From a virus: a DNA stretch of 23,783 nucleotides. The DNA lies in the IMG/VR virus record IMGVR_UViG_3300024343_000116, positions 1 to 23,783 of that record, one strand, 5' to 3'. Below the pieces are notes generated by a model. The model did not search any database. It was not told where the DNA came from and saw only the letters and a list, made by a program, of their open reading frames with translations. This document shows, in pieces, positions 5,347 to 20,049 of this stretch. Position 1 is the stretch's first letter, and every line of letters begins with the position of its first letter. A program made the translations under genes and the position numbers.

Positions 5347-5353
5347 ACTTTTA

Positions 5354-5815: not shown

Positions 5816-6059
5816 TGGGTTGTTGGTTAATTAATGTATCTGATATCAGATTTAATGAGTCTATTTTGTTGTACAGAGAATCTATCTTAATAGAGTTCTC
5901 TATAACTTGCTGCATGAGACTATCGTTTATCTCCTCGAGCCTTTCCTCTAGGTGATTTTTATTCTCTTGTCTGCATGTCTTAACTGTAACAGCTATTCCT
6001 ACTAGAAGTAGCAAGGCTGATATCACTTGGATTATCTTAACTACTAAGCTTTTTTCCAT
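5658..6059 (-). CDS. Rz-like inner-membrane spanin candidate
   Basis: 133 aa. A single N-terminal membrane anchor (IIQVISALLLLVGIAVTV, about 8-25) is followed by a charged coiled-coil stretch (about 30-75: ERLEEINDSLMQQVIENSIK and onward) and a helical C-terminus. This is the topology of i-spanins (Rz). It starts 16 bp inside the end of the CHAP endolysin gene, and its own 3' end is overlapped by the next envelope gene, so the order holin candidate, endolysin, Rz-like, second envelope protein is a classic lysis cassette. No sequence-level family match is claimed. Confidence 0.68.
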   Translation of the reverse strand: MEKSLVVKIIQVISALLLLVGIAVTVKTCRQENKNHLEERLEEINDSLMQQVIENSIKIDSLYNKIDSLNLISDTLINQQPIVNEYYRQEVYNILNADARGANRKLAEVLKVSDSLLKAGFFSRTINIPNELN

Positions 6060-6613
6060 CTGGTTATATGTAAGTTTCTAGACAATGGACGTACTTTTCT
6101 ATATACGCCATCCCCTGTTCTTGAGTCTCTAGTTCCTCTTTCGTTAGTATTACCTTCTATAGTTCTAACTGAGTATTTTCCTATTAGTTCCACTACTCCT
6201 GTGTGCCCTATATTTTTAAATCTTCCCTGCTTATCATTATAACTCAATGTCATGATAAGCACATCTCCAGGTGAGTAGGATTGGTAGAATCTCCCGTTAG
6301 TATAGATTACATCTTTTCTATTGTAGGCAGTTGGGGCCCATCCAGTTATTGTGTTAGGGATGTCACATTCATCTAGCATAGCCATGACGAAGAAACTGCA
6401 CCATGCATAGCCGGGCTTCCAACCTTGTTTCTCCATTAGCTTACGGAAATATCTGTCAGTAAACCCTTTATTATTCCCGCCCTTTTCTACAATACCTATA
6501 AACGATTCTGCAGTTAATCTTACGCAGTAACCGTCATTACTAACCAAAGTATTAACAGGAAAGATAAGAGAAATCCAAAGTAGACAAGTAGATATAATTT
6601 TATTTTTTGCCAT
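6044..6613 (-). CDS. Secreted CHAP-type endolysin
   Basis: 189 aa. A signal-like N-terminus (IISTCLLWISLIFPVNTLVS) precedes a CHAP/NlpC-like cysteine peptidase domain: ESFIGIVEKGG, catalytic Cys in YAWCSFFV (C72), GDVLIM at the core strand, His in IGHTGVVE (H137), and TIEGNTN with the third polar residue near 153-155. CHAP enzymes cut peptidoglycan peptides or cross-bridges. The signal sequence suggests export by the Sec system, so the neighbouring membrane protein may act as a pinholin or regulator rather than a large-hole holin. GGAG sits 8 nt before the ATG, and the gene overlaps the upstream membrane gene by 94 bp. Confidence 0.82.
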   Translation of the reverse strand: MAKNKIISTCLLWISLIFPVNTLVSNDGYCVRLTAESFIGIVEKGGNNKGFTDRYFRKLMEKQGWKPGYAWCSFFVMAMLDECDIPNTITGWAPTAYNRKDVIYTNGRFYQSYSPGDVLIMTLSYNDKQGRFKNIGHTGVVELIGKYSVRTIEGNTNERGTRDSRTGDGVYRKVRPLSRNLHITRWKKA

Positions 6614-6900
6614 GAGTTTAGCTCCATGTTCGCAAAGTACTTCAAGTCTTTTGAGTAGAAGTCCTTTTGCAATTGTCTAAAGTTAAAGTTAATTCCTAAG
6701 AATACTACAAAGTTAGCAAATACAAGGATTAATGCAGCCATTAAAACTTGTTGCAGATACTGAATAGAGATTATAGGATCCCCAAAATATTCAGCACTCA
6801 GGTATCCAAAATAAGTAAAAGCTACGAAAGCTAGTGGTACAGACCACAGCCCATCAAAGAGCTGCAGTCTATACTTTAGTGATTTTATCAAATTTTTCAT
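6520..6900 (-). CDS. Three-TM membrane protein; holin candidate
   Basis: 126 aa with three hydrophobic segments, at about 20-36 (SVPLAFVAFTYFGYLSA), 50-70 (VLMAALILVFANFVVFLGI) and 102-124 (LYLLVYFGFLLSFLLILWLV). The charged linkers and basic N-terminus (MKNLIKSLKYR) are typical of small phage holins. It comes directly before the endolysin gene, which begins within its last segment in another frame. The call rests on topology and neighbours, since holins share little sequence. Its start overlaps the preceding stop as ATGA. Confidence 0.6.
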   Translation of the reverse strand: MKNLIKSLKYRLQLFDGLWSVPLAFVAFTYFGYLSAEYFGDPIISIQYLQQVLMAALILVFANFVVFLGINFNFRQLQKDFYSKDLKYFANMELNSWQKIKLYLLVYFGFLLSFLLILWLVMTVTA

Positions 6901-8003
6901 GTAAATAACTCTTTAGCCATTGTATCAAGGTCAATAGCGGCCCCGATTGTTTCATTCTTGCCCTGAGCTGGGAGGAATTCAAAGTCAAACACAAGTCTGC
7001 TATCTGGTGGATAAGTCAACGTGTTAGTTGTAGAGTTGTAAGATACTGTATCTCCCTTCTGCAAATTAAGAGTTGTGTCTTGATTTGACGCAAAGAATTT
7101 GTTCCAAGCAGTTCCGTATGCATTATCACCAGAGGTTGTAAACTTGGAATTGTATAGTTTGTATCTGCAGACAAAGTCTGGCAGATTCTTAAAGTAAGAG
7201 CTAATTAAGCTAGTAAATGGAATGTCTTTAGAAAGAATTCCATTGATGTATGCTTCTCCTTTAATTGTATTTTCGTCTACAATTACAATATCGCTTCCAA
7301 TGCTTAAGCAGTGAGTATCGTGATTCTTGAATTCTATGTGCCAAGTAGTCCCAAAGGCTTCCGCTAGCTGACGATCAGTAAATCCTGTCTTCTGTTTTAG
7401 CTGGGCGATCGTATACTTAGGGTATGACTTAGTAAATCTAGTTGGGTTTGGAGTAGAGGTAGTCTTTAGGTAAGTTTTACGCAAAAGAGATCTCCAAGTA
7501 ATGTTCTCATCGTGTGGATATTGAACACCAAAGTAACTATTGAATCCTTGCTCGTAGTAGAAGTTGTAGTCGTATCCCTTAGCAGTTGGAACTACGTTAA
7601 TCTCAGTCCAACCTACCCAGCTTTTCTGTCCTGTACCAGCTGGAAGATTAACTATCTGTCCGTTAGCATCTAGGATAGTGTCAATAGTAAACTCTTTGTA
7701 AGGCTTGTAGAACGTAAACGTGTTATTATCCATGCTTACTATCTCCATCCCATTAGAATGGATGTGCATAGCGGCCAGGTTAATAGCATACAGACCAAAC
7801 AACGCTTCAGTTGACTCAATGTTGTAAGTATAAGTAGTTGTAGGCTCGAACTTTCCGGTTGTTGGGTTCTTAACCATCTTAGTGAAATCCATCAAACAAA
7901 TCTCAACTAATGATTTAGTTGTACGCTTGTTAACCTGTCCGTTAATAGCCCCAATTTCTGCAGGGAGATTTAGAAGTCTTAGTGCTTTTTCTAGATTTTG
8001 CAT
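6897..8003 (-). CDS. Hypothetical protein, likely virion or appendage associated
   Basis: 368 aa from ATG at 8003 (MQNLEKALRLLNLP). An upstream in-frame ATG at 8045 would add 14 residues, but that stretch is a conserved leader also seen before another gene, so I prefer 8003. The protein opens with a helix, then PAEIGAINGQ and a long beta-rich body with many aromatics (TFTFYKPYKEFTID, YDYNFYYEQGFNSYFG). It ends with DSRLVFDFEFLP and IGAAIDLDTMAKELF. I recognise no family. Its place between the appendage genes and the lysis genes suggests a tail or baseplate component. Confidence 0.75.
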   Translation of the reverse strand: MQNLEKALRLLNLPAEIGAINGQVNKRTTKSLVEICLMDFTKMVKNPTTGKFEPTTTYTYNIESTEALFGLYAINLAAMHIHSNGMEIVSMDNNTFTFYKPYKEFTIDTILDANGQIVNLPAGTGQKSWVGWTEINVVPTAKGYDYNFYYEQGFNSYFGVQYPHDENITWRSLLRKTYLKTTSTPNPTRFTKSYPKYTIAQLKQKTGFTDRQLAEAFGTTWHIEFKNHDTHCLSIGSDIVIVDENTIKGEAYINGILSKDIPFTSLISSYFKNLPDFVCRYKLYNSKFTTSGDNAYGTAWNKFFASNQDTTLNLQKGDTVSYNSTTNTLTYPPDSRLVFDFEFLPAQGKNETIGAAIDLDTMAKELFT

Positions 8004-8007
8004 ATTG

Positions 8008-8036
8008 TAAATTTTTAAGTAAAGGTAAACAAAATT
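8008..8036 (-). promoter_or_regulatory. Conserved leader element (copy 2), possible late promoter
   Basis: On the minus strand this reads AATTTT, 3 nt, TACCTTTA, 2 nt, then A/T-rich TAAAAATTTA just before the ATG. The same block with the same spacing occurs at 12506-12533 before another late gene. TACCTTTA is one base off the Bacteroidota -7 box. Shared sequence outside coding need points to a promoter or translation element. Confidence 0.5.
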
Positions 8037-8037
8037 C

Positions 8038-8667
8038 CTATACAAACGAAACAGCGCTAACTGTTGGGGGCTGCGTTGTCATTACATACCAGTTGTTACT
8101 GGTAGTAACTGTTCCCTTATAGGTCCAAATAGTACACCCTTGAGAACTATCTATATCTGTAACATTCAGATAATCAATATCTTGCACTGTGACGCCATTG
8201 TTTAAAAGGGTTAATAATCTTGGTGTCCCGGGAGAAGATGACCTTAAAGTTATAGATCCAAGGGGTGTACCTACAACTGTCAGTCCCTTGCTAAGTATGG
8301 CTGCATCCGCAAGTTGTATTGTTGTACCAACTACACTAAATCTTAGAGTACACCCTATTGTTGCTCCAGCTGATGTAAGTATTGAGTTAGTACTTATTGT
8401 TATATCAGAGGTTCCTGATATATTATTAGTGCTGGATAAAGTTATATTACCTCCTACGGTAAGCCTAGCATTTACTATTAAGTTACCCGTGTATCCTGTA
8501 GTTGTTAAAGATAAAATTGTAACTGTTGCTGCTCCTACTGTACATTGACCGTTATTAGTCCCTGTAAATACAACATCATCCCCTGCAATTGGAACTGCAG
8601 CAGGAGACCAACTTGCAGCCGTTGCCCATGTAGAGGCTGTGTTTGATATCCAGGTTTTTGTTGGCAT
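8038..8667 (-). CDS. Beta-rich appendage protein, shorter paralogue
   Basis: 209 aa, rich in T, S, V and G with few charged residues, as in parallel beta-helix or beta-solenoid proteins. It starts KTWISNTASTWATAASW with VPIAGDDVVFTG and NGQCTV. The same W...W..A.NW...VP..GTDA.F pattern opens the 604-aa protein upstream. Near the C-terminus, TDIDSSQGCTIWTYKG and NNWYV match NIDSTLGQTVWYRKG and LNWNAW of that protein. It is therefore a paralogue with the same ends and fewer internal repeats. It probably forms part of the host-binding tail fibre or spike. The TAATG junction links it to that gene. Confidence 0.75.
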   Translation of the reverse strand: MPTKTWISNTASTWATAASWSPAAVPIAGDDVVFTGTNNGQCTVGAATVTILSLTTTGYTGNLIVNARLTVGGNITLSSTNNISGTSDITISTNSILTSAGATIGCTLRFSVVGTTIQLADAAILSKGLTVVGTPLGSITLRSSSPGTPRLLTLLNNGVTVQDIDYLNVTDIDSSQGCTIWTYKGTVTTSNNWYVMTTQPPTVSAVSFV

Positions 8668-10481
8668 TAGTTAGATATGAATGTAGAATGCCTAGTTTTA
8701 GGATAATCCCAAGCATTCCAATTTAATGTATTAAAAATACTACCTTTTCTATACCATACTGTTTGTCCTAAAGTGCTGTCAATGTTATTAGCAGTGACTG
8801 CGTATACATCTTGAGAAGCTCCTGGAGATAACGTAAATATTATTCTTGGAATAGTATTACCTGTATTTACACCAATAGTAAAATTACCTCCACTAGCAGA
8901 TGAATAGTGTCTAAGTATAAGGTTATTTGTTACGGTATACGAAATTCCAGAAACTGCTTGTAGACCAAGACTAAAGGAAAATACACCCGCACCAGTAGTT
9001 GCTTGATATAAAAAGTTTTGGCAGACGTACCCAGTAGTTCCGGTCTGTCTATGGCTAAAGTTTGTATTCCAACCAGAAAAAGTCATCGTACCAATATTGA
9101 AAGGAACAGTATCATTAAATGTAATTCTATCCCCACCTGTATTAAGAGCACCTACTGTAACATGATTAATAGAGTTTATTAGTACACCCCCACTTCCAAA
9201 TCCAGAAAATGTTGTTGTAGAAGCAACTATAGAGTATCCCGTAGTTATAAAAGAACCTGCCGTATATGTAAGTGTTGCTCCATCAGTTAGACCTACATCT
9301 GAGGTAAGCGTTATTACCCCTGTAGTATTAATTACCATTTGCCAGGTAACTCCACGCAATGTTCCAAATGCGTTTTCAAACCAGTTTCCAGTTCCTTGTA
9401 GTCTTACAATTGTAGAGCTTGGGTTTCTTACTGCCCCATTTATAGTAAGATTTCCATTGGCATAAATAGTCCCTCCAGTTGTATTTATAGGGCCTTTAGC
9501 AATTGCTGTTGATTGAACCTGAAGTGTATTAACCACACAAACATTTCCGGTTATATTTATAGGTTGTGGATTACCTGAAGCAGTGGTCCTAAACTGAAGA
9601 TTGTCAAAATTAATACCACTAGAATTTGTAGTTGACGGAGAAGTAGACGTGGATCCATTTAAGTTGATATTATACGTAGCTCCGCTTTGAATTCCTAACA
9701 AATAAAAATTACCACTGTGGACAACAGTTCCTGCAGTATAGGAAAAAGTAGACTGATTATTAACAACTCCTGTTCCTCCAAAATAACAATTGTTGGCAAT
9801 AGTTACTGTTTGACCAGGAGCATTGATGTTAATATTTACCCCAAATCCAACAGCACTGCTTCCAGCAGCAGCAAAAGTAGCTGCTACACTCCAAGTTCCT
9901 GTACCAGCTAACACAATAGTTGGGATAGCTCCTGCTGTAGATTGGATGTAGGCTACAGATCCTCCTGTTAGCTGCACATTAAAATTACCATTTACAGTAA
10001 TTGTAAAAGCACCATTAAAAATTATGGGGGTATTTAAGGCAGGTCCTAAAACTAGGCTACCAACAATCCAGTTATCTGCAAGTGTAGCTATAGAGTTTAC
10101 TGCTGTAAAAGCGTTATTTATCCATAAACCATTTGGCCAAGTTTTTCCATTACTTGTAAGGGTTGTGGTTCCGTTAGCTCTTGTTATTATATTTCCTGTT
10201 CCAGCTACCCCCATTGTTGGAGATAACGTAACTGAATGGTTAGGATTAGCACTAGAAGTGCTTCCAACCGTTATACTGTTAGTCATGGTTATAGTGTTAG
10301 TATAACCAGTAAAGTTTAGATTACGACAAGCAGCTGTTGTTATATTAACTGTGCAGTTAGGAGAAAGACTGTCAAATATAGCATCTGTACCTGCTAATGC
10401 AGCAGTAGGTACTACTCCAGTATCCCAATTACCGGCTGTACCCCACAAACCATTTCCAGTTCCATTTCTCCAAATTGGCAT
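8667..10481 (-). CDS. Beta-solenoid tail appendage protein, longer paralogue
   Basis: 604 aa, almost without charged residues, full of T/S/N/G/V in irregular repeats such as GNLTINGAV, GNFNVQLTGG and VSGISYTVTNNLIL. This pattern fits a surface-exposed beta-solenoid like phage spikes or bacterial adhesins. The N-terminus (MPIWRNGTGNGLWGTAGNW, then VPTAALAGTDAIFDS) resembles modules found at the start of repetitive secreted adhesins. The C-terminal cap (NIDSTLGQTVWYRKG) is shared with the next gene. Likely role: receptor binding or virion decoration. Linked on both sides by TAATG. Confidence 0.78.
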   Translation of the reverse strand: MPIWRNGTGNGLWGTAGNWDTGVVPTAALAGTDAIFDSLSPNCTVNITTAACRNLNFTGYTNTITMTNSITVGSTSSANPNHSVTLSPTMGVAGTGNIITRANGTTTLTSNGKTWPNGLWINNAFTAVNSIATLADNWIVGSLVLGPALNTPIIFNGAFTITVNGNFNVQLTGGSVAYIQSTAGAIPTIVLAGTGTWSVAATFAAAGSSAVGFGVNININAPGQTVTIANNCYFGGTGVVNNQSTFSYTAGTVVHSGNFYLLGIQSGATYNINLNGSTSTSPSTTNSSGINFDNLQFRTTASGNPQPINITGNVCVVNTLQVQSTAIAKGPINTTGGTIYANGNLTINGAVRNPSSTIVRLQGTGNWFENAFGTLRGVTWQMVINTTGVITLTSDVGLTDGATLTYTAGSFITTGYSIVASTTTFSGFGSGGVLINSINHVTVGALNTGGDRITFNDTVPFNIGTMTFSGWNTNFSHRQTGTTGYVCQNFLYQATTGAGVFSFSLGLQAVSGISYTVTNNLILRHYSSASGGNFTIGVNTGNTIPRIIFTLSPGASQDVYAVTANNIDSTLGQTVWYRKGSIFNTLNWNAWDYPKTRHSTFISN

Positions 10482-10717
10482 TACAACTCAGTTAAAAGTT
10501 CTTGCATTATCTGCTGAGCTAGAATTTTATCTTTCTCAGTTACAATCCTATTTTCAATACTTGCCTCTATCTCCTCAATAGTTTCTGGTCTAAAGTGATA
10601 AATAGAAACTGTTACTTCATTTGTTAAATCTCCAGCAAACTGAATAGTTACATCTGTAACAAGCGTATCATCTTGAATAAACTTATTGATGATTGTATAC
10701 GTGTGAGTTATAGCCAT
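10481..10717 (-). CDS. Small late protein, unknown
   Basis: 78 aa. The N-terminal half is beta-rich (HTYTIINKFIQ, TDVTIQFAG, EVTVSIYHF) and the C-terminal half helical and charged (ETIEEIEASIENRIVTEKDK, then QQIMQELLTEL). It lies between two tail-appendage genes with TAATG junctions on both sides, so it may be a connector or chaperone for them. No family recognised. Confidence 0.72.
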   Translation of the reverse strand: MAITHTYTIINKFIQDDTLVTDVTIQFAGDLTNEVTVSIYHFRPETIEEIEASIENRIVTEKDKILAQQIMQELLTEL

Positions 10718-12270
10718 TATATCTTAGTTACTAGTAGTTGCAAAATTACCCAAGAAACTGTAGTAGCAGAATTCACGTTAAACCCAATTATATCATTGGC
10801 TGCTACAGATGTTGTCCACCCTGTTAGTGTAGATGATGCTGCTGTCTGCTGAGAAGATAGGGTTGGTAAAGCTGAGCCAGTTATTGTGTTAGCTACTGTT
10901 GGAATTGTTGGGGCGGCTGCTTTCCATACATCTATAACTATAGACCCTGAAGCATTTGCTATTAGTCTCCAAGAGTTTATGGTACAGGCATACGGAACTT
11001 GCACATACCCCTTTTGCCCAACTGTTATTGTACCCCCTGATCCATCTATGGTAGCTCCAATAGTAAATGTACCTGATATGCTAGGAACAGATTTTGGTAT
11101 CCACAGGCTAGTTGCAGAGTTAAATGCAATCACATTGTTGTTAGCAGGGGGAGTTGTCACAAGGTCTACATCATGTATCTCGTCTAGTTCATATCCATTC
11201 TGACAGCGAACATAGATCTGTCCATTACCTGCGTTAGCTCTTTCTACAATCCCTACGTAAACAAGATGAATTGGGGCATACGGTTTAGTTGCAGTTACCC
11301 CACCAAATGTAGTCCCACTTAAGTATAGTGTATTTCCAGCTGAGAATGCAGCAGTGTTAACTCCCTCGATAACTCCCTGGATAATGATATACCCGTCTCC
11401 CCCGATACTTATTGAGGAATCGTAAACTAGTCCTATGGTCTTTGCAGATGTAGCATCTTGGTCAGCTCTTGCAAGCTTGACACTCATCTTGTTTCCAGAA
11501 GCTTGGTAAGCATAGACTGCTTGGCCTTTAGATATTATGGCTCCTTCTGCATTGTGCACATAGGCTAGAAGTTGGTCAGAGATTAGTCCAATAGCTTGGA
11601 AGTTAGTCCCATCGTAAACTACTTCTACAGTTTGATTAGCCTTTATGTCCCCTGAAGCTATTGGGATATTCGTGTTTTTGTATATGTTAACAGCTCCTGA
11701 GCCGTTGATATTGAGAGTAGATGCCCCGTCGTTGACAGTGTCAAACTTAATTACAAAGACATCTCCAGCTGTAAGCGGAGTTGTTGCCCCTGTAATAGTA
11801 GTGGTGTAAACTCCTGCAGGAGATTGAGTAGCCAATCCGTAAAGTAATCCACCTCCTCCTCCCGTTGGGGCCGTGTCCCACTTTAATCCCGTAGCAGTAG
11901 TGCTATCAGCATATAAAATTTGACCGTTTGTCCCCACAGGGAGACGAGCATCTGCTGTGTCGTAGGTGTAAAGATCCCCTTTAGTTGTCAGTGGGGACGA
12001 GCCTCCTCCACCCCCTGTAGAAGATATGGTTAATATCCCGTCATTATCAGTAATTGTTACCCCAGTCCCAGCTTGAATTAAGTCAGTGAGATACTTGAAT
12101 CTAAATGCATCTCTTCTAAACTGGTTAGTATACGAGGTAAGTACCTGGTTAGGGAAGATGTTATCAGTCCTTCTATAGTACAGCTCATTTGTAGTGTCTA
12201 CATCCAATAGCTGCTTAAGGCTTATATCAACCTTAACTATCTTATTCTGTTTGTAAAACGGGGACTGCAT
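10717..12270 (-). CDS. Tail fibre-type protein with glycine hinges
   Basis: 517 aa. The N-terminus (about 1-85) is charged and helical and may attach to the virion. Then come two glycine hinges (SSTGGGGGSS at about 84 and APTGGGGGLL) around a module reading PLTTKGDLYTYDTADARLPV, a motif frequent in phage tail fibres. The middle carries AEGAIISKGQAVYAYQASGN, GNTLYLSGTTFGG and PIHLVYVGIVERANAGNGQI, a beta-rich module also common in phage fibres, ending in GYELDEIHDV. The C-terminal 130 residues form a T/S-rich beta domain that may bind the host surface. I see no enzyme motif. Confidence 0.82.
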   Translation of the reverse strand: MQSPFYKQNKIVKVDISLKQLLDVDTTNELYYRRTDNIFPNQVLTSYTNQFRRDAFRFKYLTDLIQAGTGVTITDNDGILTISSTGGGGGSSPLTTKGDLYTYDTADARLPVGTNGQILYADSTTATGLKWDTAPTGGGGGLLYGLATQSPAGVYTTTITGATTPLTAGDVFVIKFDTVNDGASTLNINGSGAVNIYKNTNIPIASGDIKANQTVEVVYDGTNFQAIGLISDQLLAYVHNAEGAIISKGQAVYAYQASGNKMSVKLARADQDATSAKTIGLVYDSSISIGGDGYIIIQGVIEGVNTAAFSAGNTLYLSGTTFGGVTATKPYAPIHLVYVGIVERANAGNGQIYVRCQNGYELDEIHDVDLVTTPPANNNVIAFNSATSLWIPKSVPSISGTFTIGATIDGSGGTITVGQKGYVQVPYACTINSWRLIANASGSIVIDVWKAAAPTIPTVANTITGSALPTLSSQQTAASSTLTGWTTSVAANDIIGFNVNSATTVSWVILQLLVTKI

Positions 12271-12500
12271 TAGTTCTTCTTAACTTGGGCTTGTATTCTA
12301 AGGTGAGTCTTTTCCTGCTCTGCAGCCATGATAGCCATTATCCCTCTGAGTTCTTCATACGAGAATTGGCACACAAACTTCTCCTCCTCGTCCAGAAACT
12401 GTACAACTTTATCATCTACGTAAACTAACATGTATGTTAAGTTCTCCTCTCCTTGCGTGAAAGGAGGCTGATACATTCCTGCTTTAATGTTAGTTGGCAT
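12270..12500 (-). CDS. Small late protein, unknown
   Basis: 76 aa from ATG at 12500 (MPTNIKAGMYQPPFTQGEEN). An in-frame ATG at 12539 would only add the conserved leader region, so 12500 is the better start. The body is a beta pair (LTYMLVYVDDKVVQFLD) followed by a helix (YEELRGIMAIMAAEQEKTHL). It is the first gene after the candidate RNA region and ends as TAATG with the tail-fibre gene. No family recognised. Confidence 0.7.
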   Translation of the reverse strand: MPTNIKAGMYQPPFTQGEENLTYMLVYVDDKVVQFLDEEEKFVCQFSYEELRGIMAIMAAEQEKTHLRIQAQVKKN

Positions 12501-12505
12501 GACGA

Positions 12506-12533
12506 TAAATTTTAGATAAAGGTAGGGAAAATT
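12506..12533 (-). promoter_or_regulatory. Conserved leader element (copy 1), possible late promoter
   Basis: On the minus strand: AATTTT, CCC, TACCTTTA, TC, TAAAATTTA, then 5 nt to the ATG. It is the twin of the element at 8008-8036 and is otherwise absent from the window as far as I can see. Confidence 0.5.
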
Positions 12534-12584
12534 TCTCAATTGGGCACACCTATCCCCTTAGAGATTTTTTTGTTTAAAGCTGGA

Positions 12585-12798
12585 CTTCAGTTCTGCCGTC
12601 TTTAGCCTTCGGTGGGACATTCCATTCTTCCCTATAGTCGTAATCCACCCCAGAACTTTATACCAACCCCATTTCAGCAACTATTGGGGACAACTTTCAT
12701 ACTCTATGTAATTGAGAATGAGTATGATAGAACCCAACGTCTGACCCCCTACTTACCTTCTGGCCCTCAGGGGTGATCGTCTTAAGTAAGACGGTTGC
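12585..12798 (-). ncRNA. Candidate structured RNA before the tail genes
   Basis: No usable frame exists between the 46-aa gene and the gene at 12500. The stretch is instead packed with inverted repeats: CGTCTTA/TAAGACG (12778-12793, 2-nt loop); ACCCC and AGGGGT arms (12744-12774); TCATACTC/GAGTATGA (12697-12727); CCCCA/TGGGG (12667-12689); GGTGGG/CCACCC (12611-12650), nested in a long-range 7-bp pair AGTTCTG/CAGAACT (12589-12657). It is also more G/C-rich than its surroundings. A -7 box (TATATTTG) at 12804-12811 would start a minus-strand transcript just before it. Strand is inferred from the flanking genes. It does not match tmRNA, RNase P or group I/II cores as far as I can tell. Confidence 0.5.
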
Positions 12799-12803
12799 TG
12801 TGG

Positions 12804-12811
12804 CAAATATA
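12804..12811 (-). promoter_or_regulatory. Bacteroidota -7 box before the candidate RNA
   Basis: The minus strand reads TATATTTG, a full match to TAnnTTTG, 5 bp beyond the stop of the 46-aa gene. The -33 position holds no clear TTTG (nearest TTTC at a spacing of 21). Confidence 0.4.
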
Positions 12812-12816
12812 AAAAT

Positions 12817-12957
12817 TTATCCTTGACCTCTGGAAACTTTTCTATAAAGTTTTGAACTCTTTAGTTTTGAAAACTTTTTCTTAGAGTGTACCCCTGGTCT
12901 CTTTTTCCTAGGATTTGGACTGAATGCATTGACTGTGTTTACTTTAGCTTTAGCCAT
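12817..12957 (-). CDS. 46-aa highly basic protein
   Basis: Read from ATG at 12957 to TAA ending at 12817. It begins MAKAKVNTVNAFSPNPRKKR, continues PGVHSKKKFSKLKSSKLYRK and ends RGQG. About 15 of 46 residues are K or R. The RPGVHSKKK...LKSSK.Y.K..RGQG pattern is one I associate with tiny conserved basic proteins of many tailed phages; their function is not known to me, but binding nucleic acid is plausible. A -7 box (TAAATTTG) lies 27 bp upstream. This would be the first gene of the leftward block. Confidence 0.7.
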   Translation of the reverse strand: MAKAKVNTVNAFSPNPRKKRPGVHSKKKFSKLKSSKLYRKVSRGQG

Positions 12958-13050: not shown

Positions 13051-13371
13051 ATGTTTCCAGTTAACTCTACATCTGAACAAAAAGTTCTGATTACTTTGAA
13101 TCCTGTTACCGCTGCTGGTAACCCTGCCACTTTGGACGGTGCTCCAGTATGGACTGTAACCGAAGGTGATTGCACTCTTGAAGTTGCTGCTGATGGTTTG
13201 TCTTGCTACCTCATCTCTGGTGCTGCTAACGTAGTAAACTACATTACAGTATCTGCTGATGCTGACCTCGATGGAAGTGAAGTTCGTGAAATTTCTGAAG
13301 CTATCGTTTATGCAGTTCTTGCCCCAGAAGCTACGGCTCTTGGTTTGAATGCAGCAGTTGAAAACAAATAA
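13051..13371 (+). CDS. Small Ig-like domain protein
   Basis: 106 aa, a single beta-sandwich-type domain: QKVLITLNPVTAAGNPATLD, PVWTVTEGDCTLEVAADGLS, CYLISGAANVVNYITVSADA and a closing EISEAIVYAVL. The pattern of PVWTVT...DG.SCYL.SG...V.ITVSADAD is like the bacterial Ig-like (Big_2) fold used in phage decoration proteins. Arg is CGT and Ala mostly GCT/GCA, the codon style of a highly expressed gene. It is the first gene of the rightward block, transcribed away from the other virion genes, and forms a two-gene unit closed by the terminator at 13743. It could decorate capsids or bind cell-surface glycans. Confidence 0.75.
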   Translation: MFPVNSTSEQKVLITLNPVTAAGNPATLDGAPVWTVTEGDCTLEVAADGLSCYLISGAANVVNYITVSADADLDGSEVREISEAIVYAVLAPEATALGLNAAVENK

Positions 13372-13382
13372 TCTATAACTAG

Positions 13383-13721
13383 ATGAAACTCAACGTATCA
13401 TTTAACAATGCAACTATCTACGGGTTTGATACCCTAGAAGTTGTCGTTGGGGAAAAGTTTAAGATCTTCGTTGACGAGTTTCAAGAAGGAACTCAGTGGT
13501 TCCACAATAACGACTCAGTTATTGACTTGAAAACTTACAACGGGGAGGCTATGTTCACAGCTGTAGAACTAGGGGAGAGCAAAGTTCTCTTCGTTCTTAA
13601 CGGACAAATTATTCGTGAGTTTGTCATCAAAGTTGTTGACCTAGTTAACCTTAACCCTAAAGTAGAAGAAGTTGTTTACAAAAACTTTGATACAGAGCCT
13701 TTTGTAAATACTGTCGTTTAA
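13383..13721 (+). CDS. Small Ig-like protein
   Basis: 112 aa. The motifs LEVVVGEKFKIFVDEF, QWFHNNDSVIDLKTYNGEAM and FTAVELGESKVLFVLNGQII follow the strand pattern of Big_2 Ig-like domains (G at about 23, hydrophobic core, G-E-S-K-V near the end). The C-terminus is an acidic tail. It sits 11 bp after the other Ig-like gene and shares its codon style, so the two are probably co-expressed at a high level and may act together on the virion surface. No catalytic motif is seen. Confidence 0.7.
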   Translation: MKLNVSFNNATIYGFDTLEVVVGEKFKIFVDEFQEGTQWFHNNDSVIDLKTYNGEAMFTAVELGESKVLFVLNGQIIREFVIKVVDLVNLNPKVEEVVYKNFDTEPFVNTVV

Positions 13722-13742
13722 CCTTACCAATTCTAATAAGAA

Positions 13743-13776
13743 GAGCCTCCAAACGTGGGGGCTTTTTCTTTTTCTT
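13743..13776 (+). terminator. Intrinsic terminator after the Ig-like genes
   Basis: AGCCTCC pairs with GGGGGCT (one G-T pair) across a 6-nt loop, followed by a T-rich tract (13763-13776). Confidence 0.85.
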
Positions 13777-13781
13777 AAAAC

Positions 13782-13880
13782 CACACTTTAGTGTGAATCT
13801 AGCTGTATCCTTTATCTGATAAGGAGTTTGTTACACGTAAACCACATTATACTGTAACAAATCTGCGTAAAATTTGTTAC
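13782..13880. repeat. Inverted-repeat cluster between transcription units
   Basis: First comes a 14-bp palindrome, CACACTTTAGTGTG (13782-13795). Then an 8-bp word appears three times in alternating orientation: TTTGTTAC (13827-13834), GTAACAAA (13854-13861) and TTTGTTAC (13873-13880). In RNA the middle copy could pair with either outer copy, giving two exclusive hairpins; in DNA the three could be a binding-site cluster. The rest of the 13,777-14,000 gap is A/T-rich with no gene. Confidence 0.6.
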
Positions 13881-14000
13881 GAAAATTTTTTTGGGAAATT
13901 TTCTGAGAGTGTTACCCTACGTATTCAAAGACCCCCGCTAAGTTTTGGGCATTCGACATGCCCCCTATTTAATCGTAAACTCTTAAATAATTTATAAGCA

Positions 14001-14312
14001 ATGAGCAAGACAACAACAGCTTCGGAACAAGTAATGTTTGTTCCTACTTACGCAAAACTATTTGCTAAGAAAGACGAGACAAAGGTCTCTGGTGTTTACC
14101 TTTCTAATCAATCACCTACGCAAGCTACGGTGGTTCATAAGAAAGTTAAAGGTAAAATCCAATTGCAGGTTTCTGCATTGGTTTCAGACTCCGATGACAA
14201 GACATCTCGTCTGCATAACTTCGTTAATCGAAGTTCTAGTGATTGGGCAATCACTATTCAGTTTCTCGTTCAAGAAGGTATTCTTGACGAGGAAGCACTA
14301 GATTTAATCTAG
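14001..14312 (+). CDS. Hypothetical small protein, possibly highly expressed
   Basis: 103 aa. A beta-rich core (VSGVYLSNQSPTQATVVHKK, GKIQLQVSALVSD) is followed by a charged segment (DDKTSRLHNFVNRSSSDW) and a helix at the end (EEGILDEEAL-like, ending ALDLI). The stretch KKVKGKIQLQVSALV resembles RKVNGGKIQLEFAEIV in the 202-aa protein at 16476, so the two may share a fold, perhaps nucleic-acid binding. It is isolated as a one-gene unit between a long leader and a strong terminator, which suits an abundant early protein. No known family recognised. Confidence 0.75.
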   Translation: MSKTTTASEQVMFVPTYAKLFAKKDETKVSGVYLSNQSPTQATVVHKKVKGKIQLQVSALVSDSDDKTSRLHNFVNRSSSDWAITIQFLVQEGILDEEALDLI

Positions 14313-14317
14313 GCTTC

Positions 14318-14346
14318 AAAAGGGGACATTCGTCCCCTTTTTTTTA
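14318..14346 (+). terminator. Strong intrinsic terminator
   Basis: A perfect 10-bp stem AAAAGGGGAC/GTCCCCTTTT with a 4-nt loop (ATTC), running into T8, 5 bp after the stop codon of the 103-aa gene. Confidence 0.93.
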
Positions 14347-14408
14347 TTGTTGAAAAGCTTTTTGTTACTGCTTACGATTAAATAGATACTACTCAGGAGC
14401 GAAGCGAC

Positions 14409-14453
14409 ATGAATAGAATAAAATATTTTAGAGTCAGATGGAAGGACACATGA
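14409..14453 (+). CDS. Possible 14-aa leader peptide
   Basis: ATG, preceded 9 nt upstream by AGGAG, encodes MNRIKYFRVRWKDT (4 of 14 residues are Arg or Lys at RVRWK). Its stop overlaps another short ATG (ATGA), and hairpins follow directly. It could be a translated leader that controls the hairpins, or chance. Confidence 0.2.
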   Translation: MNRIKYFRVRWKDT

Positions 14454-14480
14454 GTATGTCCCAACGCATCACACTCTAAT

Positions 14481-14534
14481 AAGTGTGGTATCATACTAAT
14501 CATCGAACTGATTATATACTATGGTATCACACTT
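14481..14534 (+). repeat. 20-bp imperfect stem-loop
   Basis: AAGTGTG/CACACTT (7 bp), GTATCAT/ATGGTAT (7 bp with two G-T pairs) and TAATCA/TGATTA (6 bp) stack around a TCGAAC loop. The AGTGTG strand can instead pair with CACACT at 14470-14475, so two structures compete. Confidence 0.65.
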
Positions 14535-14663
14535 TATAATCTTATGCTTGCTTAACATAGGCATAGATAAGGTATAGCTATAACCTATAGTAATCAACAT
14601 TGAATACACGAAACATTGTATCATATGTATAGCTGCTTCTCACTGATGCTTAAAGTGTACCTT

Positions 14664-14766
14664 AAGTTGTAATAGGAGATATAAAGCCTAAACAATAGAA
14701 CTGAAAGCAAAATTGGGAACTGAAGCTGGTATGCAGTGTAAACCTAATGAGTTTCTATTACAACTT
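14664..14766. repeat. 12-bp perfect inverted repeat, 79 bp apart
   Basis: AAGTTGTAATAG at 14664-14675 and its exact reverse complement CTATTACAACTT at 14755-14766. The enclosed 79 bp has no frame or tRNA fold that I can identify. The pair could close a multi-branched RNA domain just upstream of the gene at 14815. Confidence 0.6.
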
Positions 14767-14814
14767 TAACTTAGTAATCAATAACTTAAATCAATATAAG
14801 TAACTTAAATTATC

Positions 14815-15084
14815 ATGAATTACACACTTAACTTCATCAAAGTAATTGCTCAAATTGCAGTAGTTGCTACCATTACATTCATTCTTCCTGCTGTATTACA
14901 TTCACTTGTAATGTTTAATCTGCATCATTACTTCATGGACATCATGAGTAATGACTACCAATTAGGGATGGGCTTCGTGACTGTAGTCATCAGCATCATG
15001 TATTGTATTGTGCATGCTATGGAGATGGATGAACGTCATGAACGTACTCAACGTGCTGAACTTAATAAGTTTAACAAGTTCTAA
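14815..15084 (+). CDS. Small membrane protein, two TM segments
   Basis: 89 aa. Hydrophobic stretches at about 8-32 (VIAQIAVVATITFILPAVLH) and 50-67 (LGMGFVTVVISIMYCIVH) are separated by a short loop rich in His, with a charged cytoplasmic-type tail (MEMDERHERTQRAELNKF). The leader TATAAGTAACTTAAATTATC is A/T-rich without a Shine-Dalgarno. It is followed 12 bp later by a lipoprotein-like gene. Function unknown; small early membrane proteins in phages often alter the host envelope or block superinfection, but nothing here shows that. Confidence 0.65.
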   Translation: MNYTLNFIKVIAQIAVVATITFILPAVLHSLVMFNLHHYFMDIMSNDYQLGMGFVTVVISIMYCIVHAMEMDERHERTQRAELNKFNKF

Positions 15085-15096
15085 TACTATAGCACT

Positions 15097-15291
15097 ATGA
15101 AAGAGAACAGACATAAATTTGCTGAGGATATGACAGCCTTCGGGCTGTTTATCCTTGGGATTATCTTAATGGTAATCATGCTAACATCTTGTTCTACATC
15201 CAGAGACTATGGATATCAAGATCATTTAAGAACTACTCATCACAAGAACTTTATCTCTCGAGATAATGGTGGGTGTGGGTGGAATGATTAG
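15097..15291 (+). CDS. Small lipoprotein-like protein
   Basis: 64 aa. A hydrophobic stretch (FGLFILGIILMVIMLTSC) ends in a lipobox-like LTSC with Cys at about 32. A polar tail follows with the conserved-looking end SRDNGGCGWND. Tiny lipoproteins ending in NGGCGW are familiar from Bacteroidota genomes and their phages, which supports the host assignment. Three acidic/basic pairs precede the hydrophobic stretch, so the signal would be longer than usual. If lipidated it would sit in the envelope. It shares a unit with the membrane protein before it, closed by the hairpin at 15326. Confidence 0.65.
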   Translation: MKENRHKFAEDMTAFGLFILGIILMVIMLTSCSTSRDYGYQDHLRTTHHKNFISRDNGGCGWND

Positions 15292-15325
15292 GACTTTAAC
15301 TATTGGACTTCATACAATAGCAGCT

Positions 15326-15357
15326 TAACGGTGAGGCTTAAACCGTTACTTTTATTT
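15326..15357 (+). terminator. Likely intrinsic terminator
   Basis: TAACGGT/ACCGTTA (7 bp, 9-nt loop) followed by a T-rich tract (CTTTTATTTT). Confidence 0.65.
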
Positions 15358-15386
15358 TAAAATCAATAACAAACACATATAAAATC

Positions 15387-15998
15387 ATGACAAACTTAAA
15401 ACCTAAGGGTCAACCAACAGCGGTCGAATGGGTATTCGACAAGATGAGTAATGTATTAGCTGGTAATTCCAGCGTAACTACTCAAGAAATACTAGAGCAA
15501 GGACTAGCAATGGAGACAAGCCAGCTAGAAGATGCTTATGGTAGAGGATATGTAAACAGCGTAGATCCAGATACTCTAGTAGAGAATATGCCAGTCGAGG
15601 ATATGACTGGTCAACCTGATAAAGATGATCAGTGGTTCGTTAATATGCTTAATGAAGAAGCTGAGTCTAATGATGGCGATAATTCAGAGTATCGTCAGTA
15701 CCGTGAACTTCCTGATGTACCAGAATACATCATTGCGTCTATTAGTGATGATGCTTGCGAGACATATGTATTCGAAGCTACTGCTGATGGTAAGATAGTA
15801 TCATATGAGGAATATGGTGGATTAGCAGAAAGATGGGGTGATCTCAGATGGTGGGATGCTGAAAAGGCAGTCAAATCATGTATGAAAAACAACTATGATT
15901 TAGTATCTGTTAAAGGTAACCACGTATTATTCAAGCTAGTTAAACCTGATGAGCTCACTCATTTCGATGGTGATGAATCAGATAGAATCAGTTACTAA
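15387..15998 (+). CDS. Hypothetical acidic two-part protein
   Basis: 203 aa. The first ~55 residues (TAVEWVFDKMSN, then ILEQGLAMETSQLEDAYGRG) follow a pattern often seen in small phage and plasmid proteins of Bacteroidota (TAVEWL...EQA..ME..QI.DA). A very acidic linker follows (about 60-105), then a folded-looking domain (about 110-195) with YIIASISDDACETYVFEA and WWDAEKAVKSCMKNNYDLVS. The protein may therefore be a fusion of two phage modules. Function unknown. The gene is followed directly by the 122-aa gene, probably in one transcript. Confidence 0.72.
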   Translation: MTNLKPKGQPTAVEWVFDKMSNVLAGNSSVTTQEILEQGLAMETSQLEDAYGRGYVNSVDPDTLVENMPVEDMTGQPDKDDQWFVNMLNEEAESNDGDNSEYRQYRELPDVPEYIIASISDDACETYVFEATADGKIVSYEEYGGLAERWGDLRWWDAEKAVKSCMKNNYDLVSVKGNHVLFKLVKPDELTHFDGDESDRISY

Positions 15999-15999
15999 T

Positions 16000-16368
16000 A
16001 TGAAGACACTTACCTACATCAAGAGAGTTGAGATAGAAGAAACAATACCGTTTCCTATCATCACATTTGTTGCTGAGAAAGTGCGAGTTTATACAGGAGA
16101 TAGCTCATGGTTTGACATGGGCTATACTCCTAGACTCGATGGTCTGACATTACATGAGTATCGTAAACTCCATAATGCTTGGGATAGAGATATCGAGAAA
16201 GCCTTAGAAGACTATGTAAAGACTACATATAATCTAAGTAGTGGATGGGGTTATATAGATTACAATGTCTATTCAGCTAAACAACTTGGGATGCCCGAAC
16301 TTCCTAAAGTTGATCCAAAGTTTAACGATGATCATGCTGATCTAGTTAGAATGTTTAAAGGGGCTTAG
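16000..16368 (+). CDS. Hypothetical protein
   Basis: 122 aa from ATG at 16000 (MKTLTYIKRVEIEETIPFPI), one base after the previous stop. An upstream in-frame ATG at 15949 would lie inside the previous gene and is less likely. The protein is mixed alpha/beta with many aromatics (VRVYTGDSSWFDMGYTPRLD, HEYRKLHNAWDRDIEKALED, SSGWGYIDYNVY). I recognise no family. Its stop codon lies in the loop of the terminator at 16357. Confidence 0.68.
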   Translation: MKTLTYIKRVEIEETIPFPIITFVAEKVRVYTGDSSWFDMGYTPRLDGLTLHEYRKLHNAWDRDIEKALEDYVKTTYNLSSGWGYIDYNVYSAKQLGMPELPKVDPKFNDDHADLVRMFKGA

Positions 16369-16377
16369 TCCCCTTTT
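16357..16377 (+). terminator. Intrinsic terminator overlapping a stop codon
   Basis: AAAGGGG/CCCCTTT (7 bp, loop CTTAGT) followed by a short T-run. The TAG stop of the 122-aa gene is within the loop. Confidence 0.75.
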
Positions 16378-16475
16378 ACTAATGCAGCCAGGTAATACTG
16401 AAGGTCACAAGCCCTTTAATGCAGAGTGGTAAAATCAATTCATTCATTTAATTTATTATTTAAATCATCAAAATC

Positions 16476-17084
16476 ATGATGAAAAACACAATCAACAGTG
16501 GCTCGTTGCAGGGATTGCAAGCTGGCCAAACCCTTCTCCTCCAAGCTCGTAAAGTTAACGGGGGTAAAATCCAACTGGAATTTGCTGAGATTGTCAAAAC
16601 ACAATCTAATGCAGCAAACCCATTGGCTTTGTTTAACAAAAGCGACGATCGTTTCTCACAAGGGAATGGTGCTCGTCGTGCATGGTTAACTGCTGAAGCT
16701 AAGGATGCTTCAATCTATCTCAACATCAACCTGATGGATGATGCTGATTGGGATGTTGACCAGATGGGACGTGAAATCCTCCCATTGAATGTCATTAACC
16801 CAGTTGCTAACATCAATGGCGAAGCATTCCCATTGAAGGTGCAAGTGGAAGAGACTGTCACTCCAACAGATTGGCAGGCTAACAACATCGATACTGCGGC
16901 TAAGCGTCGTGGTAAAGATGGAGACTTCATCACTCACCAAGGTATGTACATCTTTGCTAACACTCGTGTAGTGTTTAACAAAGCTACTCACGTATTCCTT
17001 GAGGCTGATGCAGCTAAGACAAATGTATCTGCTGGTATTCCTGCTGGTAGTTCATTTGATTCTTCTTCCCCATTCTTTAGCTAA
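16476..17084 (+). CDS. Abundant early protein; possible ssDNA-binding protein
   Basis: 202 aa. The first half has an OB-like strand pattern (QTLLLQARKVNGGKIQLEFA, then IVKTQSN, and RRAWLTAEAKDASIYLNINL). The protein ends in a flexible Ser/Asp tail capped by aromatics, SSFDSSSPFFS, like the acidic-aromatic tips of SSB and phage ssDNA-binding proteins that recruit partners. All eight Arg codons are CGT, unlike the AGA/AGG-rich polymerase nearby, which suggests high expression. It lies just upstream of the replication genes, after a 100-bp leader. The ssDNA-binding role is inference; a virion or decoration role is the alternative. The second Met, one codon later, is an equally good start. Confidence 0.72.
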   Translation: MMKNTINSGSLQGLQAGQTLLLQARKVNGGKIQLEFAEIVKTQSNAANPLALFNKSDDRFSQGNGARRAWLTAEAKDASIYLNINLMDDADWDVDQMGREILPLNVINPVANINGEAFPLKVQVEETVTPTDWQANNIDTAAKRRGKDGDFITHQGMYIFANTRVVFNKATHVFLEADAAKTNVSAGIPAGSSFDSSSPFFS

Positions 17085-17099
17085 GGCTAATTAATGGTA

Positions 17100-17180
17100 A
17101 ACCAAGTAGCTCAACTGGTAGAGCGTAACGAGTTTTATACTATTCTCGTTAAGATATGGGTTCGAATCCCATCTTGGTTT
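17100..17180 (+). tRNA. tRNA-like gene with enlarged anticodon arm
   Basis: Acceptor AACCAAG/CTTGGTT is perfect (7 bp), the D arm is GCTC...GAGC with GGTA in the loop, and the T arm ATGGG-TTCGAAT-CCCAT is perfect. The anticodon arm is 26 nt instead of 17: TAACG/CGTTA leaves a 16-nt loop, or 7 bp TAACGAG/CTCGTTA leaves a 12-nt loop TTTTATACTATT. The anticodon therefore cannot be assigned. Length is 81 nt, with no encoded CCA. It may be an inactive remnant, a non-decoding mimic, or a tRNA with an unusual loop. Confidence 0.7.
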
Positions 17181-17216
17181 CATAATCCTCGTGTCATTGC
17201 TTAGAGTTTAATTAAG

Positions 17217-17265
17217 AACAACGGACTATAATGAGTTTGAGGATGCTCATTGTCCGTTGTTTTTA
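17217..17265 (+). terminator. Strong hairpin with T-run after the tRNA-like gene
   Basis: AACAACGGAC/GTCCGTTGTT (10 bp), a 3-nt bulge, then AATGAG/CTCATT (6 bp) and a 10-nt loop; T5 overlaps the stem end. The loop contains GAGGAT, complementary to ATCCTC at 17185-17190, so an RNA pseudoknot is possible. Confidence 0.8.
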
Positions 17266-17322
17266 ATCATCATGTCTTTACGATGTACAGCTCACGAAAC
17301 AATTTAAAATCCAATATACACA

Positions 17323-17556
17323 ATGAGTAAAATGAAATTTGTATTTGACTTGATGGAGTCAGGGACTTATCAAGCGTTTGAACTACAGGCTATGATAGCA
17401 GCTGAACGTGGAGAAAAGATCTTCCAGTTTGGTAATGCTACATATGATGTAGAATTTGCAGCCAATGTCATGGCTTATATTTACCACAAAATTGCAGAAC
17501 AAAATGAACAGCACCGTCTATTTCATCAGCAACAGCAGCAGTCTGATTCCGAGTAG
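17323..17556 (+). CDS. Small hypothetical protein before the polymerase
   Basis: 77 aa: KFVFDLMESGTYQAFELQAM, ERGEKIFQFGNATYDVEFAA, then a helix (VMAYIYHKIAEQNEQ) and a glutamine run (HQQQQQSDSE). No family recognised. It starts after an A/T-rich leader (AATTTAAAATCC) and overlaps the polymerase gene by 53 bp in another frame, so the two are likely translated from the same transcript. Confidence 0.68.
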   Translation: MSKMKFVFDLMESGTYQAFELQAMIAAERGEKIFQFGNATYDVEFAANVMAYIYHKIAEQNEQHRLFHQQQQQSDSE

Positions 17557-19414
17557 CTTTAACACATCAACAATCGAAGAGGCGGTTGAGTATCTATTAA
17601 CTAAGCAAGTCTTAGGCGTAGATACAGAGACCGAAGGATTTGATTTTACATGTAAGAAGCTACTGATGTTTCAGATTGGGGATGCAGAGCGTCAGTATGT
17701 AATTGATTGTAGAGATCTAACTTATATGGATCAGGTGCAACTAACTAGGGTATTGAACAATGAGGATATCGTCAAGATATTCCACAATGCAAAGTTCGAT
17801 TACAAGTTTATCAAGCACTATTTGCATATAGATACTGTAAACATTCATGACACATACCTGTGTGAGAAAGTGTTACACTGTGGTAAAACTGATTACGGAT
17901 TTGGACTGGCTAAGCTTGTCAACAGGTATCTAGGTAAAGAGTTAGATAAGTCTGTACGTAACAGGTTTACACAAACATCTTCAACTCCATTCACTGATGA
18001 TCAGATTATCTACGGTGCTAAGGATGTAGAGTATCTAATAGATATCTATCATCAACAGGTGGATTTGCTTAAGCTTCAGAATCTATCTAATGTAGCTGGT
18101 CTTGAGAACTATGCAGTCATTGTATTCTCTGAGATAGAGTACAACGGACTAGAGATTAACCTTGAAGCTTGGAAGAAACTAGCTGATAGAAACAAACAAG
18201 AAAGTTTAGTTTTAGCTAATCAGTTAGACAAGCTGTTGCTATCATACCCAGAGTTCAGCAGTTACAAAGCGAAGAAACAGTTAGACTTATTTCTATCTGA
18301 GGAGGAGTTAAAAGATTCAACAGTGAATTGGGATAGCCCAAGTCAAACACTGAAGATATTCCAGACTCTATTCCCTAAGATTGAGGATGTAAATGGTAAG
18401 AAGCTAGTTCCATACAGGTACAAGCATCCACTGATTGATGAGTACATTAAGTATAAGGAGAAGAGTAAACTAGCATCAGCATTCGGAGCTAACTTCAACA
18501 GCTACATTAGTTGTGACGGTAAGGTGCATACTAACTTTCAACAGATACTAGACACAGGACGTGTCTCATCTAGCGAACCTAATATGCAACAGATCCCAGC
18601 AACTAATGAGTATCGTAATTGCTTTGTAGCTCCACATGGATGGGTGTTTGTATCCTCTGACTATAGCTCACAGGAGCTGAATGTAATTGCCTACGGTTCT
18701 GGGGATCCTGTATTCTTATCAGCTCTTAGGAATAACCAAGACTTGCACTCTGTATGTGCTGCCTTAGTATTCGGACAAGTATGGTATGATGCAGCAGAAC
18801 CAGATTGTGCATTCACTCAGAGTAAACAGAAGTGTGAGTGTAAGGAACACAAGAAGCTTAGGACACAGGTTAAGACAATCAACTTTGGATTGGCCTATGG
18901 AATGGGGCCTAAGAAACTAAGTGAGACTATTAACTCTACACTGAGTGAAGCAAAAGATTTGATTGATAAGTATTTCAAAGCCTTCCCAACTATTAAGAAG
19001 TTTCTTAATGATCAGGGAGAATTTGGAAAGAGGTACGGTTATGTCACAACCTTTCATCCTTTCTATAGGAAGAGATGGTTTGATAGCTGGACCCCTAAAA
19101 TGTATGGAGATAGAGACAGCTTTATGGAGCTGGGTTCTATCGAGAGAGCATCTAAGAATACCCCAATTCAGGGTAGTTCAGCTGATATGACTAAATTAGC
19201 ACTAGTTTATCTTCACAGAACAATAAAGAAACATGGCTATCCAGTTAAGATAGTAATGACTGTTCACGATCAGATAGATACCATTTGCCCAGAAGAATTT
19301 GCTGAGGAGTGGAAAGTCTATATGACCAAGGAGATGGAGAATGCAGCTAATAGAGTCATTAGGAATGGATTATTAAAAGCAGATACATCAATAACTAAAG
19401 TATGGAGTAAGTAA
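17504..19414 (+). CDS. Family A DNA polymerase with 3'-5' exonuclease
   Basis: 636 aa from ATG at 17504 (MNSTVYFISNSSS); an upstream in-frame ATG at 17456 would lie deeper in the previous gene. Exonuclease motifs: Exo I VDTETEGFD (D40, E42), Exo II HNAKFD (N95, D99), Exo III YGAKDVEYL (Y170, D174). Polymerase motifs: A SSDYSSQELN (D386), B RTQVKTINFGLAYG (R453, K457, Y465), C TVHDQID (H588, D589). The usual Glu of motif C (HDE) is Gln here. A short Cys/His cluster (C435, C444, C446, H449) sits just before motif B and could bind zinc. There is no 5'-3' exonuclease domain, as usual for phage replicative PolA. It is the central enzyme of the replication module and is encoded with little spacing to its neighbours. 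Confidence 0.93.
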   Translation: MNSTVYFISNSSSLIPSSFNTSTIEEAVEYLLTKQVLGVDTETEGFDFTCKKLLMFQIGDAERQYVIDCRDLTYMDQVQLTRVLNNEDIVKIFHNAKFDYKFIKHYLHIDTVNIHDTYLCEKVLHCGKTDYGFGLAKLVNRYLGKELDKSVRNRFTQTSSTPFTDDQIIYGAKDVEYLIDIYHQQVDLLKLQNLSNVAGLENYAVIVFSEIEYNGLEINLEAWKKLADRNKQESLVLANQLDKLLLSYPEFSSYKAKKQLDLFLSEEELKDSTVNWDSPSQTLKIFQTLFPKIEDVNGKKLVPYRYKHPLIDEYIKYKEKSKLASAFGANFNSYISCDGKVHTNFQQILDTGRVSSSEPNMQQIPATNEYRNCFVAPHGWVFVSSDYSSQELNVIAYGSGDPVFLSALRNNQDLHSVCAALVFGQVWYDAAEPDCAFTQSKQKCECKEHKKLRTQVKTINFGLAYGMGPKKLSETINSTLSEAKDLIDKYFKAFPTIKKFLNDQGEFGKRYGYVTTFHPFYRKRWFDSWTPKMYGDRDSFMELGSIERASKNTPIQGSSADMTKLALVYLHRTIKKHGYPVKIVMTVHDQIDTICPEEFAEEWKVYMTKEMENAANRVIRNGLLKADTSITKVWSK

Positions 19415-19415
19415 C

Positions 19416-19772: not shown

Positions 19773-20049
19773 TTATCCACTGGGGGCTGAGCACGATCCA
19801 AGTGCACCCTATAATCAGAACGATGATGGATTGTGTATCTATTGTGATTCATCAGAGATCAAAGCTATTGCTAGAGAGAAAGCTCAAAGCATAGCAGATG
19901 AGATGAATAAAGGATTAGGAGATGGTCAAGAGTCATTTGATTCTGATGATTTCTACGATGCTTGTCTTCATGATGAGTTTGATATTCGTAGTGAGTGCAG
20001 GCAGTGTTATCTAGATGATCATGCAGATGATTGGGAGGAGGACATATGA
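19765..20049 (+). CDS. Small Cys-containing acidic protein
   Basis: 94 aa. It opens SNYPLGAEHDPSAPYNQ, a start frequent in small phage proteins, followed by CIYC (about 24-27) and, near the end, CLH and CRQC with a run of acidic residues (DDHADDWEEDI). The paired CxxC motifs could hold a zinc ion. No function known. It overlaps the next gene as ATGA. Confidence 0.7.
   Translation: MSNYPLGAEHDPSAPYNQNDDGLCIYCDSSEIKAIAREKAQSIADEMNKGLGDGQESFDSDDFYDACLHDEFDIRSECRQCYLDDHADDWEEDI

Follow-up and report, generated by a model that had tools for sequence, protein, structure and literature searches.

The virus record IMGVR_UViG_3300024343_000116 of IMG/VR, a stretch of 23,783 bases that was analysed whole (the window), carries a structured noncoding RNA (ncRNA) near its middle. 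It belongs to the minus strand, has a host-type promoter, and stands at the 5' end of the late module in a large environmental clade of crAss-like phages. All sequence data were supplied by metagenomic contigs. Comparison of homologues makes it nearly certain that a real family of conserved structured RNAs is involved. The RNA probably has a part in starting or maintaining transcription of the late genes by the host polymerase, and the preferred reading, with a probability of roughly 0.4, is that it may be a nascent-RNA leader acting on host RNA polymerase to promote late transcription. A first-pass annotation of the window had proposed a structured ncRNA of ~200 nucleotides (nt) between late genes, and covarying pairs in homologues bear this out. 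The interval that it gave, 12585–12798, was right in location and too short at both ends, the RNA extending from 12801 to 12576 and a 3' element reaching 12545.

Folding of the single sequence gave a modest signal on the minus strand, with -72.4 kcal/mol compared to -63.6 ± 4.6 for shuffled sequences (z -1.94; equalled by 8 of 200 shuffles). The plus strand folded no better than chance (z -0.75), and a plus-strand RNA was rejected on this value and on the lack of a conserved promoter. The minus strand, on which the first-pass annotation had placed the -7 box, is the right one. An open reading frame (ORF) of 54 amino acids (aa) on the plus strand at 12612–12776 is a mechanical listing. Single-sequence folding alone would not settle the question; the weight lies on the comparative evidence. 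Among 40 distinct sequences of domain 1, 97.4% of cells were paired and 14 of the 23 pairs had changed on both sides, giving 188 double-sided (compensatory) cells. Shuffled alignments had a mean of 76.7% paired cells and 58.9 double-change cells, and neither observed value was reached in any of 500 shuffles. Pairing fell to 33–50% when partners were slid, a control that favours the structures as they were derived from the same alignments, the shuffles being the fairer one. In the seed alignment, made without fitting to the model, pairing was 97.3% and 102 cells had double changes, versus 26.2 in shuffles. Domain 2 (P6–P9) was tested separately in three groups. The freshwater groups had 98.5% of cells paired and double-sided changes in 17 of 25 pairs (56 double changes, shuffle maximum 25), the marine group had 100% paired and 19 double changes (shuffle maximum 15), and group 4 had 96.7% paired and 100 double changes (shuffle maximum 48). 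The consensus fold of domain 2 in each of the three groups was better than those of all 100 column-shuffled alignments. The shuffles leave the relatedness of the sequences in place; relatedness is an unlikely explanation, however, because many independent pair types occur in P1 and P2. Variants of P1 include GCAAC/GUUGC, GAGGC/GCCUC, ACAGC/GCUGU, GUACC/GGUAC, ACACC/GGUGU, and CGAAC/GUUCG, among others.

The features of the RNA and its surroundings are collected in Table 1. All inverted repeats named by the first-pass annotation are present in the sequence. On the plus strand, AGTTCTG (12589–12595) and CAGAACT (12651–12657) form P7 of domain 2, GGTGGG (12611–12616) and CCACCC (12645–12650) correspond to P8 of the same domain, and CGTCTTA-AG-TAAGACG (12778–12793; 7 bp with a 2-nt loop) is the P2 hairpin of domain 1. 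Across the family the RNA is about 215–300 nt long. Extra arms of >50 nt occur within P5 of domain 1 in some clades (L066, L084, and L101), some with GNRA-like or repeated CGCTG elements. A possible pseudoknot close to P5, CUAU with AUAG, was set aside for steric reasons.

Table 1. Positions in the window of the RNA, its helices, and neighbouring elements.
Feature	Position	Strand	Evidence or remark
Structured ncRNA, both domains, ~226 nt	12576–12801	minus	alignments A1–A4, covariation, match to model R1 at 112.6 bits
-7 promoter box, Bacteroidota-type, TATATTTG	12804–12811	minus	conserved TAnnTTTG in homologues
Domain 1, four-way junction P1–P4 and apical arm P5	12675–12800	minus	covariation
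P1	12794–12800 with 12675–12681	minus	4 pairs with compensatory changes
P2 hairpin	12778–12793	minus	4 pairs with compensatory changes
P3	12769–12774 with 12744–12749	minus	1 pair with compensatory changes
P3b hairpin	12755–12764	minus	3 pairs with compensatory changes
P4	12733–12737 with 12684–12688	minus	2 pairs with compensatory changes
P5, apical, variable arm	12720–12727 with 12697–12704	minus	
Domain 2, elongated, P6–P9	12576–12670	minus	98.5% of cells paired in freshwater groups
P6	~12663–12670 with 12576–12582	minus	
P7	12651–12657 with 12589–12595	minus	
P8	12645–12649 with 12611–12615	minus	
P9	12637–12639 with 12616–12618	minus	
Conserved loop of domain 2, AGGCTAAAGACGGC	12595–12608	minus	
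Conserved G-rich 3' element, AAGGGGATAGGTGTG	12545–12559	minus	complementary to domain 1 strand AGTTGTCCCC (12686–12695)
Weak second -7-like box, TACCTTTA, ahead of 76-aa gene	12517–12524	minus	matches TATCTTTG, at fixed distance in most of sister clade
First gene 3' of the RNA, 76 aa, followed by tail genes; start of late block in the clade of the window	12273–12500	minus	
Gene for a tiny basic protein, 46 aa, MAKAKVNT...RGQG; usually next to the RNA on the upstream side	12817–12957	minus	

The -7 box that had been read ahead of the RNA on the minus strand was found as TATATTTG. Of the 51 homologous copies, 39 have TAnnTTTG no more than 45 nt ahead of P1, almost all of them at 11–18 nt, against a background of 0.9 per kb; several of the copies without the box are truncated at contig ends or belong to one box-less clade. 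Since the promoter stands at a fixed distance, P1 is taken as essentially the 5' end of the transcript. Transcription in the window is predicted to start at ~12797–12801, and the RNA begins 4–10 nt past the box. A small acidic protein ending in (E)NCGS is encoded just upstream of the RNA at several loci (L064, L069, L077, L095, and others). In the marine clade the stop codon of this protein abuts P1, so that no -7 box belonging to the RNA stands directly ahead of it there. On the 3' side an A-rich linker is followed by AAGGGG(G)A(U/A), which is kept across clades. Between the element and the AGUUGUCCCC strand of domain 1, 8.9 of 10 positions on average are complementary, where non-cognate pairs reach 8.7, and the element covaries weakly with the P4 strand, at p 0.02 relative to non-cognate pairs. 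Support for a short hairpin at this end is modest. Possibly the element acts as a switch, by alternative pairing with the P4 strand, or as a 3' hairpin. No canonical terminator-like site follows the RNA in the window.

These ends also suit a free phage ncRNA that acts in trans, as a regulator, decoy, or scaffold of a ribonucleoprotein, with its own promoter and an end near the conserved 3' element. Such an RNA ranks next after the polymerase-modifying leader and is a tentative reading. It would agree with the fixed promoter distance, the conserved 3' boundary (a G-run and then a U-rich stretch, with weak hairpin covariation), the second promoter 3' of the RNA in one clade, and a large, well-conserved fold present in single copy, one convincing match having been found per contig in 13 of 13 contigs searched whole. 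The missing canonical terminator speaks against it, and an RNA acting in trans needs no fixed place at the head of the late module. A TROVE protein is encoded by crAss001 (PMC8375218), and a Ro-type partnership was therefore considered. However, among 13 environmental crAss-like contigs, of which 11 bear the RNA, none encoded TROVE (PF05731), and Ro-associated Y RNAs (YrlA) differ further in that no Rfam family matched the present RNA. The NusG family (PF02357) was likewise absent from 13 such contigs, again with the RNA on 11, as was reverse transcriptase (PF00078), the mark of a diversity-generating retroelement or retron, in 11 contigs. Y RNA, a NusG/LoaP leader, and retroelement RNA were thus rejected for want of their partner proteins in the contigs searched.

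Many crAss-like phages from lakes, seas, and soils, all uncultured, carry the RNA. A search with the 76-aa gene yielded 38 IMG/VR loci. At 11 of these, near-identical contigs counted, the tiny basic gene, the RNA, and the -7 box precede the 76-aa gene, and at a twelfth the contig ends inside the RNA. Sister phages (L013, L015–L037, and L039; contigs up to 124 kb, some of them short fragments) have the 76-aa gene, most with a phosphoesterase-like gene in the place of the RNA, and the RNA was not found in 10 long contigs among them that were searched whole. DNA patterns built from conserved blocks reached far more divergent copies and brought the number of distinct domain 1 copies in IMG/VR to 51. 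A homologue of the large terminase of the window was present on 34 of 37 RNA-bearing contigs tested, at identities from 97% down to 28%, and the RNA is therefore old or mobile within the phage group.

No family of Rfam 15 matched the window or any of 13 divergent loci at the gathering threshold; a hit to a known family was among the findings that the first-pass annotation had named as refuting its proposal. Sensitive Rfam searches with three members gave chance scores only, and a sub-threshold hit to RAGATH-25 (15 bits, L064) was judged to be chance. Twelve cultured or reference genomes (10 Crassvirales and 2 Fipvunavirus) gave only sub-threshold matches to two models, the best with an E-value of 0.14, model E-values being rough. 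Among bacterial genomes (GTDB-species contigs), none of 26 pattern matches was confirmed by the model. DNA similarity to isolated phages was nil for the window and one other member and was limited to short chance matches for a third. Among the titles and abstracts found in a collection of open-access papers for crAss-like phages together with structured or noncoding RNA or antitermination, none describes such an RNA. Judged by these searches, the family is undescribed and missed by current libraries.

The closest database relatives of the large terminase of the window, at 38–43% identity over nearly the full length, are mainly from crAss-like phages. The genes of the window are split into two divergent blocks, a late block on the minus strand (1–12,957) with portal, terminase, and tail genes, and a replication block on the plus strand (13,051–23,783) with DNA polymerase and helicase. 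In all four long contigs mapped (G007, G008, G009, and G011), the junction between the divergent blocks holds the RNA, which has the orientation of the late genes and stands at the 5' end of their module. This upholds the placement at the head of the tail-gene operon made in the first-pass annotation. The late module headed by the RNA spans ~55–60 kb with 31–36 larger ORFs, and the opposite module spans ~17–20 kb. The cumulative GC skew has its minimum ~320–720 bases from the RNA in G007, G009, and G011, as would suit an origin-linked RNA serving as a primer for, or a control of, replication of the phage DNA at the junction; divergent gene orientation alone predicts the same minimum, however, and in G008, a contig cut at another point, the minimum lies elsewhere, so that this role is improbable. 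Tail, portal, and terminase genes come after the RNA, an order that would suit an RNA for packaging or assembly (in the motor, as a scaffold, or carried in the virion). This role is highly unlikely: the neighbouring gene varies by clade, nothing ties the RNA to the virion, and terminases of this class are not known to require RNA. As side observations, the replication block of the window has two strong intrinsic terminators (13740–13767 and 14318–14341, plus strand) and, at 17100–17181 on the same strand, a tRNA gene whose anticodon was called as four bases (tata), which is unusual and may point to a tRNA for special decoding or frameshifting.

Which gene comes first after the RNA depends on the clade; it may be the 76-aa gene, a tail protein gene, or a GroES-like or PhoH-like gene. 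The RNA is accordingly tied to the head of the operon and not to one gene. Of the roles suggested by the first-pass annotation, a regulator or leader of the late module stays best, and a riboswitch-like leader of one gene is disfavoured by this variation. A ligand-sensing riboswitch of the first late gene would account for the leader position and for the helix that the 3' element may alternatively form with the P4 strand, but there is no association with one pathway and no Rfam riboswitch matched, and of the roles weighed here it appears the least likely. On the upstream side, a family of tiny Lys/Arg-rich proteins (the window and homologues in L002–L104) with the pattern RPGxHxKxKxSKxKSSKxYxKxxxGQG(R) is usually encoded directly or one gene upstream of the RNA. 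The tiny basic protein had no PHROG match and is a candidate RNA-binding partner.

The polymerase-modifying leader is the first choice because of the position of the RNA, its promoter, its independence from the following gene, and the absence of a terminator after it in the window. The supported fold and the single copy in the contigs searched whole also count in favour of this reading. In crAss001 and phi14:2, a virion polymerase reads the early genes and the host polymerase is thought to be needed for middle and late genes (PMC8375218; PMC10136315). The host-type promoter at the RNA fits late transcription by the host polymerase. Under the proposed mechanism the RNA would be the leader of the late transcript, would fold on leaving the host RNA polymerase, and would stay with it, with or without a small protein of the phage or the host as the link. 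The polymerase would then resist pausing and termination along the ~55–60 kb late module. Whether the RNA is engaged or released may be set by pairing between its 3' element and the P4 strand. Late modules contain strong terminator-like hairpins: those on the late strand of L169 have 14 pairs each, and L178 has one of 10 pairs plus T8.

Several observations weigh against this leader. The RNAs of L064, L069, and their relatives have no -7 box directly ahead of them. In one clade a TATCTTTG box lies 3' of the RNA at a fixed distance, and further host-type -7 boxes occur inside the late module, so that the RNA might be transcribed as a unit of its own. The lack of a NusG-family gene in the contigs searched is a further point, and the RNA is three times the length of put, the nearest precedent, with no recognisable shared sequence.

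The put sites of phage HK022 (putL and putR) provide an RNA-only precedent, in which a phage leader acts on polymerase in cis as RNA, directly behind a host-type phage promoter at the head of a long operon (PMC9378689). The put RNA, of ~70 nt with two stem-loops, serves the early genes of a lambdoid phage; acting through the beta' zinc-binding domain, it suppresses both pausing and termination. The present RNA, in contrast, is ~215–300 nt, has two multi-helix domains with a four-way junction, and heads a crAss-like late module, and its action on polymerase is one that we infer. In Firmicutes, the EAR element and the LoaP-dependent leaders (for LoaP, PMC12691694) are long-operon leaders that give processive transcription. 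The present RNA differs from these leaders in its fold, in having no Rfam match, and in that no NusG-family gene was found in the phage contigs searched; a host NusG paralogue is possible. ROOL and GOLLD are likewise large structured RNAs of uncertain function, partly from phages and metagenomes (PMC12286853). They are much larger, differ in position and fold, and are in Rfam yet were not matched here.

It is conceivable, if doubtful, that the RNA represents a previously unseen class, in which a large viral RNA, alone or with the tiny basic protein, would make the host polymerase processive and termination-resistant for the whole ~55–60 kb late module. The crAss-like phages are among the most abundant viruses known, and a single-copy RNA with a strict place and a well-supported fold makes it testable how they pass from middle to late transcription with the host polymerase. 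With a covariance model of the RNA, many genomes of uncultured phages could be annotated and the start of their late module marked.
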